A DNA stretch of 64,000 nucleotides from a virus, in the IMG/VR virus record IMGVR_UViG_3300022074_000012, positions 30,872 through 94,871 of that record; one strand, given 5' to 3'. The notes under the pieces were generated by a model. That model was not told the origin of the DNA and did no database searches. It saw nothing but the letters and a program-made list of their open reading frames with translations. The first letter of the stretch is position 1; each line of letters begins with the position of its first letter. Positions 20,107 through 31,688 of this stretch are shown here, piece after piece. A program made the translations under genes and the position numbers.

Positions 20107-21472
20107 TTTCCATATTATTGGAACAGGTGCTTGTGGTTTTCTGAGAGCATATCAAACTCTTAAGAATCATATACCATTAAAGTATAAAGGAGGTAGAGGT
20201 AAATATCAAAACAGTTTTCAAAACTGGAATGATAATGGATTGATATGGAATATTGAATCATTATCAAAAGAAGAAAGAGTAAGAAGAGTTAGTCAACATA
20301 ATACTACAACTAATATCACTCATTCATATTTAAAATATGTTCCAGAGTTTGTAGGATTAGATCCTAACTTAAAATTTTTATGTTTGAAGGGAGATAAACA
20401 TCATTCTATTTTTAACTTAGCAGTTTCTTGGGGTTATCGTAATCCTTGTTTTGTGAAAGAAAGGAGAATAGGTGCAGGTTTTAATCGTTATACTGTAGAT
20501 GAGTTTCCAAATCATAGTGATTGTGATAATGAGTTTGATGCAACAGAAAAATATTGGGAAGAGTATTATCAGATTGCAGATATCATGCAAGACAATTATC
20601 CGTTTAACTTTTTTATAGTTGATGCAATAAAATTTTTTAGTGATATAGAATATAGAACTGATGTACTATCAAAGGTAGATGTTAATATTGGAGATGAACC
20701 ACTTCTTCCTGTTAATATCAATAACTTGAGTATAAGCACTACATTACATGGTGGCATAGGTAATAACTTACTTCAGATGGGAGAGGTAATATCATTTTGT
20801 AAAAAACATAATCTTACTGAACCATTCTTTGGAACTTGGGATCTATGGGATGGTGGTGGTAAGTATCCTCCACCATATAATGCAGATAGATTTCTTGGAG
20901 GACATGAGGGTGATCATAATACAATTAGAAAAACATTTCCAAATTTAAATTGGAAGGGAGATCTGTCCGCTGACTACGACACTACATTTATTATAAATGA
21001 TATGTTTAGATTCAGTGATTGTGATGAACTTGATTATGTAAGAAAGAAATTATCTATTACAGATAAGACAATGCCAAACACTGTTTCCTTGCATTTGAGA
21101 TATTGTACTCAACCTGTTGATGATCATGTCAATGGATATGTTGATGATACATTTTACATTGAATGCTTTAAACACATACCAGAAGAAGTACATGTCTATA
21201 TCTTTTCTGATGATATTTCAAAATCAAGAGGTAAATTACATTGGTTCCAAAAAAATTTCCCCCAAAAATTTTCATGTGTAGAGTCGGACTCTTTTCAATC
21301 TCTTCAAATGATGGTAGAATGTGAGTATCACATACTTCATGTATCTACGTTTAGTTTTTGGTCTGCATTTCTAGACATAAATCAACCGAATAGTAAAGTA
21401 TTTTATCCTAAGTCCTTTACAGATACACATAGTTCGTTTATGATACCTTATAAAGAATGGCAAATGATTTAA
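20099..21472 (+). CDS. Two-domain protein: sulfotransferase-like N-terminus and GT11-like C-terminus
   Basis: 457 aa. Residues ~1-200 begin FHIIGTGACGFLRAYQTL, like the PAPS-binding loop of sulfotransferases, and include FLCLKGDKHHSIFNLAVSW, like their 3'-phosphate-binding segment. Residues ~210-457 follow a degenerate GT11 pattern: LHGGIGNNLLQMGEVISF, VSLHLRY (no RRGD), FSDD, HVSTFSFWSAFLD. This looks like a fusion of a sulfuryl-transfer domain and a fucosyltransferase-like domain. The C-terminal domain may have altered specificity because the HxRRGD motif is lost. Confidence 0.65.
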   Translation: MSSFHIIGTGACGFLRAYQTLKNHIPLKYKGGRGKYQNSFQNWNDNGLIWNIESLSKEERVRRVSQHNTTTNITHSYLKYVPEFVGLDPNLKFLCLKGDKHHSIFNLAVSWGYRNPCFVKERRIGAGFNRYTVDEFPNHSDCDNEFDATEKYWEEYYQIADIMQDNYPFNFFIVDAIKFFSDIEYRTDVLSKVDVNIGDEPLLPVNINNLSISTTLHGGIGNNLLQMGEVISFCKKHNLTEPFFGTWDLWDGGGKYPPPYNADRFLGGHEGDHNTIRKTFPNLNWKGDLSADYDTTFIINDMFRFSDCDELDYVRKKLSITDKTMPNTVSLHLRYCTQPVDDHVNGYVDDTFYIECFKHIPEEVHVYIFSDDISKSRGKLHWFQKNFPQKFSCVESDSFQSLQMMVECEYHILHVSTFSFWSAFLDINQPNSKVFYPKSFTDTHSSFMIPYKEWQMI

Positions 21473-30339: not shown

Positions 30340-30368
30340 TTGACATCTGTGTAAAGTTTTGTTAATAT
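30340..30368 (+). promoter_or_regulatory. Sigma-70-type promoter of psbA
   Basis: TTGACA (30340-30345), a 17-nt spacer and TAATAT (30363-30368). Start expected near 30375, giving a leader of about 180 nt before the psbA ATG. Confidence 0.75.
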
Positions 30369-30373
30369 AAATA
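30366..30373 (+). promoter_or_regulatory. T4-type late promoter overlapping the psbA promoter
   Basis: TATAAATA, an exact late consensus, sharing three bases with the host-type -10 box. It would give nearly the same transcript start in the late phase. Confidence 0.65.
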
Positions 30374-30378
30374 CAACA

Positions 30379-30555
30379 GTGAGGGTTTCCTCACCATTAG
30401 AAAGGACTCGAAATTATCGTAACCCTGACTACACAACTGCTCCCAACCAAGACCTCTGTAGGCAGTATAATACCTCGTCTTTCATATCCAGTAGTGAGGG
30501 ATTACTGGAAATAAATATCGCATCTTCCCTGATGCCCTATTTAAACGTCTTACTA
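30379..30555 (+). promoter_or_regulatory. Structured psbA 5' leader
   Basis: About 177 nt without a convincing gene. Hairpin 1 (30379-30394) has arms GTGAGG/CCTCAC with loop GTTT at the very 5' end. Hairpin 2 (30487-30509) has arms TCCAGTA/TACTGGA and a 9-nt loop holding GTGAGG (30494-30499). CCTCAC at 30389-30394 can therefore pair with either GTGAGG copy. PhotoRC RNA motifs are described upstream of psbA in cyanobacteria and cyanophages; membership here is inferred, not tested. The frame is open through to psbA, but the extra 59 residues are not D1-like. Confidence 0.6.
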
Positions 30556-31644
30556 ATGACAACTCTTTCAAAACAAGGCAGACAACAAGGTCTGTTAGCA
30601 GGCTGGCCACAGTTCTGCGAATGGGTAACATCAACAAACAACAGAATTTACGTTGGTTGGTTTGGTGTCCTAATGATTCCATGCTTACTCGCAGCAGCAG
30701 CATGTTTCATCGTTGCTTTCATAGCAGCACCTCCAGTCGATATCGACGGAATCAGAGAACCAGTAGCGGGTTCTTTCTTGTATGGTAACAACATCATCTC
30801 TGGTGCAGTTGTTCCTTCATCAAACGCTATAGGTCTACACTTCTACCCAATCTGGGAAGCAGCAACAGTAGACGAATGGTTATATAACGGTGGTCCTTAC
30901 CAGTTAGTTATTTTCCACTTCCTAATCGGAATCTCTGCTTACATGGGCAGACAGTGGGAACTATCATACAGATTAGGTATGAGACCTTGGATATGTGTAG
31001 CATATTCAGCACCTGTATCTGCAGCATTTGCAGTATTCTTAGTATACCCATTCGGTCAGGGATCTTTCTCAGACGGAATGCCACTAGGTATCTCAGGAAC
31101 CTTTAACTTCATGTTCGTATTCCAAGCAGAGCACAACATCCTAATGCACCCTTTCCATATGGCAGGAGTAGCAGGAATGTTCGGAGGATCTTTATTCTCA
31201 GCAATGCACGGTTCTTTAGTTACATCTTCTCTAATCAGAGAGACAACTGAGCAAGAGTCTCAGAACTATGGTTACAAGTTCGGACAAGAAGAAGAAACAT
31301 ACAACATCGTAGCAGCACACGGTTACTTTGGTCGTCTTATCTTCCAGTATGCTTCATTCAACAACTCAAGAAGTTTACACTTCTTCCTAGCAGTATTCCC
31401 TGTAGTCTGTGTATGGTTAACCTCTATGGGTATCTGTACAATGGCATTCAACCTTAACGGTTTCAACTTCAACCAGTCTGTAGTAGACGCAAATGGTAAG
31501 ATTGTACCAACATGGGGAGATGTTCTTAACAGAGCAAACTTAGGAATGGAAGTAATGCATGAGAGAAATGCACACAACTTCCCACTTGACCTTGCTTCAG
31601 CAGAGTCAACAACAGTTGCTTTAACAGCACCTGCAATCGGTTAA
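30556..31644 (+). CDS. psbA: Photosystem II reaction-centre protein D1
   Basis: 362 aa from the ATG at 30556 ([10 protein letters not shown]). It covers the full five-helix D1: [49 protein letters not shown], the redox Tyr in [40 protein letters not shown], and the C-terminal [12 protein letters not shown] with a processing extension. Gln in GRQWE corresponds to Gln130 of the low-light D1:1 form. By known biology it replaces turned-over host D1 during infection. No intron is present. Followed by a terminator. Confidence 0.98.
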
Positions 31645-31666: not shown

Positions 31667-31688
31667 AGGCACCTTCGGGTGCCTTTTT
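31667..31688 (+). terminator. Rho-independent terminator after psbA
   Basis: Arms AGGCACC/GGTGCCT with loop TTCG and five T. It separates psbA from psbD; no promoter is obvious in the 15 nt left before psbD, so read-through may set the D1:D2 ratio. Confidence 0.85.

Follow-up and report, generated by a model that had tools for sequence, protein, structure and literature searches.

An extended PhotoRC-II leader of a cyanophage psbA gene, its overlapping promoters and an RNA module shared with a Phage_OMP leader

The psbA leader described here carries a PhotoRC-II RNA in which, based on covariation among phage leaders, the loop of hairpin P1 pairs with a linker as a pseudoknot and the loop of P2 contacts that of a third hairpin, P3; a 34-nt module (module M) and a 5' hairpin lie upstream. 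The best explanation, held with slightly more confidence than doubt, is that the leader would form a static protective 5' fold that is made from two overlapping promoters and keeps the start site open, the structure being well supported by covariation and the role inferred. This extended structure supersedes the two-hairpin picture of PhotoRC-II and names the individual base pairs to be disrupted and repaired, and the analysis brings to light an RNA module and another family of leaders, both missing from Rfam 15.

Leader data set and features

The window, i.e., the whole stretch of 64,000 nucleotides analysed, runs from base 30872 to base 94871 of a virus record of 94,871 bases. Leaders were collected from psbA-anchored IMG/VR scans, pattern scans for module M and the P1 loop, one more pattern scan and 10 phage isolates; of 238 loci with psbA, 192 had the motif of the P1 loop, and 119 non-redundant leaders were kept, one leader having been dropped from the set owing to a misassigned start. 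The psbA-anchored loci carry no bias as to the pseudoknot partner. The further pattern scan, with TTATAATATCTCTCAT, yielded largely unrelated contigs; its pattern included the AUCUC partner, so that a few leaders of the GAGAU class are biased, but this class is also found among unbiased loci (e.g., L025, L028, L030, L033, L036, L047, and L314). Alignment A1 contains 54 sequences and the psbA tree 98 genes; leaders may recombine as units, moving both sides of a pair together, which would inflate the counts of independent changes on this tree.

The named phages with the closest psbA leader are the Eurybiavirus isolates P-HM2, MED4-213, and P-HM1. A host origin of the leader was rejected, since the pseudoknot signature is missing in 76 of 77 cellular psbA leaders. 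One contig labelled as a Euryarchaeota MAG (L548) encodes psbA with a short phage-like PhotoRC leader and is likely a misbinned phage contig.

Table 1. Features of the psbA leader region, in window coordinates.
Feature	Position	Strand	Remarks
Sigma70-type promoter TTGACA-17-TAATAT	30340..30368	+	10/12 match
T4-type late promoter motif TATAAATA	30366..30373	+	exact; shares 3 bases with the -10 box
psbA leader	30366-30555	+	PhotoRC-II RNA
Hairpin 1, GTGAGG-GTTT-CCTCAC, RNA 5' end	30379..30394	+	varied-sequence hairpin in most relatives
Module M: TAG/CTA stem, 3x3 internal loop, GG/CC, conserved ACTCGAANNNATCGTAAC with CGA/TCG	30398..30431	+	34 nt; outside Rfam
PhotoRC-II RNA (RF01717) match	30426..30522	+	61.8 bits, gathering cut-off 39
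P1 hairpin, stem ACTGC/GCAGT	30436..30466	+	4/6 pairs changed on both sides
Pseudoknot 5' side AAGAC, P1 loop	30449..30453	+	Watson-Crick with partner in 119/119
Pseudoknot 3' side GTCTT	30477..30481	+	partner of AAGAC
P2 hairpin TCCAGTAGT-GAGGG-ATTACTGGA	30487..30509	+	4 pairs changed on both sides, 100% paired
Loop-loop contact, loop 2 side AGGG	30497..30500	+	99.1% of cells paired; compensations in L002, L319, L381
P3 hairpin (P3a AAATA/TATTT; P3b GCATC/GATGC; loop TTCCCT)	30513..30542	+	both-side changes: P3a 2, P3b 5 pairs
Loop-loop contact, loop 3 side CCCT	30527..30530	+	pairs with AGGG of loop 2
Start-proximal single-stranded stretch AAACGTCTTACTA	30543..30555	+	no Shine-Dalgarno-like sequence; GTC[TC]T/CTA conserved in A1
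psbA (D1) coding sequence	30556..31644	+	ATG at 30556

Overlapping promoters and the reading frame upstream of psbA

The original prediction placed a host-type promoter and a late motif sharing three bases upstream of psbA, and both are present: TTGACA at 30340-30345, a 17-nt spacer, TAATAT at 30363-30368, and an exact TATAAATA at promoter position. Sigma70-type promoters with at least 9 of 12 matching positions precede psbA in 115 of the 117 leaders with enough upstream sequence; among these 115, the late motif lies at or beside the -10 box in 72, and in 65 it has the window's +3 register with at least 7 of 8 positions matching, despite a variable -10 hexamer. The association of the two promoters in psbA leaders exceeds chance.

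The cyanophage late motif is NATAAATA, early and late promoters that overlap have been described for these phages, and the combination of a sigma70 box with the late motif has been put forward as a form of middle-mode control in S-PM2 and Syn9 (PMC2984593). The psbA leaders have this combination in common with the overlapping promoters of T4-like cyanophages and RB49; unlike those, they show one fixed register, serve a photosynthesis gene and would give a near-identical 5' end, the arrangement being known at the level of motifs. Downstream, a terminator-like hairpin is located between psbA and psbD (31667-31684).

Translation of the leader as an N-terminal extension of D1 was also considered, as no stop codon interrupts the psbA frame between the GTG at 30379 and the psbA start and a 421-aa ORF is present in the ORF list. 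Nevertheless, the frame is open in just 24 of the 119 leaders and leader lengths are evenly spread modulo 3, which refutes a coding extension with near certainty. In P-HM2, the gene PHM2_211 (GU075905.1 171588-171722; L309:653-787), annotated as a hypothetical protein, sits within the structured leader of psbA and is unlikely to be a real gene.

Assignment to PhotoRC-II

A cmscan against Rfam 15 identified PhotoRC-II (RF01717) as the single gathering-level match in the whole window, in agreement with the PhotoRC element anticipated 5' of psbA. The leader shows the two hairpins, the conserved AACCgAGACC and GAGGG loops and the location 5' of psbA that characterize the family; of the two PhotoRC models, the second accounts for the leader and PhotoRC-I (RF01716) gave no covariance-model match in it even at E<=5. 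Like the family known since 2010 (PMC2864571), this RNA belongs to a marine cyanophage and scores above gathering with the same P1 and P2 hairpins and loops.

Hairpin 1, the promoter and most of P3 fall outside the RF01717 model. Beyond its structure line are the pseudoknot between the P1 loop and the linker, P3, the contact of the P2 and P3 loops and the upstream module M and, beyond the Rfam model as well, the OMP leader family described below. CaCoFold counted PhotoRC-II in 2020 among the families with extra covarying pairs, which the main text of that paper leaves unspecified (PMC7657543); the pseudoknot may thus have been seen already and hence not be new. The manA and wcaG RNAs are, similarly, structured cyanophage leaders whose function is not known, although their models match neither the psbA leader nor the OMP leader studied here.

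The P1 pseudoknot

The core of the P1 loop occurs as AAGAC in 65 leaders, GAGAC in 40, GAGAU in 13 and AGGAC in one, and the exact reverse complement of a leader's own loop core is present at most 75 nt away in all 119, the complements of the other classes being found in 0-2. A sixth U-A pair is formed whenever the loop has the corresponding U (7/7). On the psbA tree the first pseudoknot position changed 27 times and its partner 27 times; 19 of 19 independent pairs on supported branches were concordant (p=3.8e-6), a type of count that is inflated by recombination of whole leaders, and the fifth position was concordant in 6/6. This covariation shows the P1 loop to pair with the linker (AAGAC with GUCUU) as a predicted pseudoknot, a structure that is well supported. 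The pseudoknot part of the originally proposed "switch or pseudoknot" is supported in general terms; the pairing that had been named for it, between CCTCAC and loop 2, is not.

A second GTCTT lies at 30547-30551, just 5' of the psbA start, and is kept as GTC[TC]T whatever the pseudoknot class. As a rival partner of the loop AAGAC it was rejected, given that it remains GUCUU or GUCCU in every loop class.

P2, P3 and the contact between their loops

P3 comes after P2 in 104 long leaders and, in the window, ends 13 nt 5' of the AUG; with rare exceptions, the P3 loop holds CCCU or CCUU, complementing AGGG or AAGG of the P2 loop. For the complete structure, 97.2% of the cells of A1 are paired, vs 87.1% with shuffled letters and 34-54% with slid partners, and double-change cells number 155 vs 35.9, with 18 pairs having double changes. 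The four pairs of the loop contact are mostly invariant (AGGG/CCCU), with compensation in three lineages only; these GC-to-AU compensations (L002, L319, and L381) represent three separate changes on the tree. When AGGG was compared with the 40 nt downstream, shuffles matched too since the region is C-rich, and because this spoils the shuffle test the evidence was taken from the comparison of loop to loop. On these comparative grounds, the P2 loop is shown to pair with the loop of P3 in the predicted structure.

P2 and P3 are both present in 104 leaders and both absent in 15, which have P1 and the pseudoknot only; the state changed eight times on the psbA tree. Among nine short leaders scanned, two were just above the Rfam cut-off (L316, 44.2 bits; L044, 42.5 bits) and the other seven (L023, L026, L031, L035, L046, L317, and L373) gave no PhotoRC match at E<=1.

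Hairpin 1 and the proposed alternative pairing

Hairpin 1, which had been predicted from GTGAGG at 30379-30384 and CCTCAC at 30389-30394, is a real 5' hairpin, above chance as a class: stems at this place in the relatives score 14.5 where shuffles score 10.4, and 34% of them do better than every one of their own 20 shuffles. It had further been suggested that CCTCAC alternates between this hairpin and a second GTGAGG in loop 2 (30494-30499), with six perfect pairs possible either way. Such a triple, a 6-mer present twice together with its reverse complement, is found in 587 of 1276 (46%) 180-nt stretches of the window, so that the coincidence requires no explanation. Furthermore, the hairpin 1 alternative does not track loop 2 among relatives: the GTGAGG..CCTCAC hairpin occurs in 16 leaders, nine with another loop 2 and the other seven being the window and its close relatives, and CCTCAC is missing from most leaders whose loop 2 has GTGAGG. 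In the 100 nt upstream of P1, a 6-nt Watson-Crick complement of loop 2 is present in 11 of 102 leaders (shuffles: mean 6.6, maximum 12), and seven of the 11 are again the window and close relatives. The switch would also disrupt the upper part of P2 along with the conserved contact between the loops. Of the two pairings, the stem of hairpin 1 is kept with varied sequence in most relatives and the alternative with loop 2 does not covary; a mutually exclusive switch of this kind, suggested to respond to light or a ligand, appears highly improbable.

The GTGAGG/CCTCAC combination reappears as hairpin 1 in distant leaders. In the window (30379-30394), as a lead only, it may resemble the CCUCAC motif conserved in Yfr1, a host sRNA.

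Proposed role of the leader

In the favoured explanation, the overlapping promoters, evident as motifs, would yield almost the same RNA early and late in infection. This RNA would present, in order, hairpin 1, module M, PhotoRC-II with its pseudoknot and the contact between the P2 and P3 loops, probably as a mostly static, compact and rigid 5' structure hindering the entry of host ribonucleases, and would leave 30543-30555 single-stranded for a ribosome that binds without a Shine-Dalgarno sequence. D1 would thereby be made whichever promoter is in use. Module M, whose only other copy in the contig lies in a second leader, probably supplies a control or stability function common to both. Use of both promoters and this folding of the RNA in the cell are what we infer from the sequences compared. 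Indirect support for protection comes from the podovirus P-SSP7, as infection of Prochlorococcus MED4 induces RNase E and antisense RNA reportedly shields phage transcripts from it (PMC9692554). Against a protective fold, 15 leaders manage with P1 and the pseudoknot alone, and the loop nucleotides may just as well be conserved as a binding site.

A different role would be that of a ligand- or redox-sensing riboswitch in which PhotoRC-II and the pseudoknot set psbA translation, with the loop contact beside the AUG as expression platform. The invariant loop letters (ACC, GA), which exceed those needed for pairing, and a pseudoknot and loop contact close to the start are typical of aptamers. However, a non-exhaustive search found no conserved, mutually exclusive pairing by which the start would be hidden or a terminator formed, the start-proximal GUCUU/GUCCU is independent of the loop class, and PhotoRC-II was scored "n" for riboswitch by Weinberg et al. 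(2010; PMC2864571). A riboswitch is regarded as unlikely.

Module M and the Phage_OMP leader

Compensatory changes affect all three pairs of the outer stem of module M. Among cyanophage contexts, the pattern scan placed the module in just two, namely psbA leaders and the leaders of a gene encoding a 131-aa signal-peptide protein of the Pfam family Phage_OMP (PF24653). Its reading as an inverted tRNA arm, which GGACTCGAA resembles, was rejected, as no tRNA was called at the site.

A covariance model (R1) detected exactly two copies in the contig of the window, one in the psbA leader (E=7e-18) and the second in the Phage_OMP leader (contig 20897-20933), beyond the window. In P-HM2, MED4-213, and P-HM1 strong R1 matches were likewise limited to these two leaders. 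This distribution, the invariant internal loops of the module and the same promoter layout in both leaders would be expected if module M were a binding site for a protein or sRNA, of phage or host, that co-regulates psbA and Phage_OMP post-transcriptionally as a two-gene regulon. On the other hand, module M is missing from 54 of the 98 psbA leaders on the tree, P-TIM68, P-SSM2, P-SSM7, and P-RSM6 have one strong match each, so that co-regulation would be lineage-specific, and no binder of the module is known; the regulon is a tentative idea, with the odds against it. The same guarded standing is given to a broader proposal, in which module M would be a transferable element of RNA control: a single factor or ligand would read the same 34-nt fold in exactly two messages, those of psbA and the outer-membrane-like protein, and tune both in infection, while the PhotoRC-II pseudoknot and kissing-loop fold would gate psbA translation.

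The OMP leader had no match in Rfam 15. RNAalifold on 34 OMP leaders predicted three hairpins, all seven pairs of the second showing double changes, and recovered module M independently. An undescribed structured leader with three hairpins, module M being the first, is placed 5' of the Phage_OMP gene (L594:112-209, contig 20891-20988) and is found in about 60 IMG/VR contigs (e.g., L118:2549-2647). A manA RNA is located directly 3' of the Phage_OMP gene in one of these (L118:3150-3350) and 3' of psbA in another phage (L013:3710-3912).
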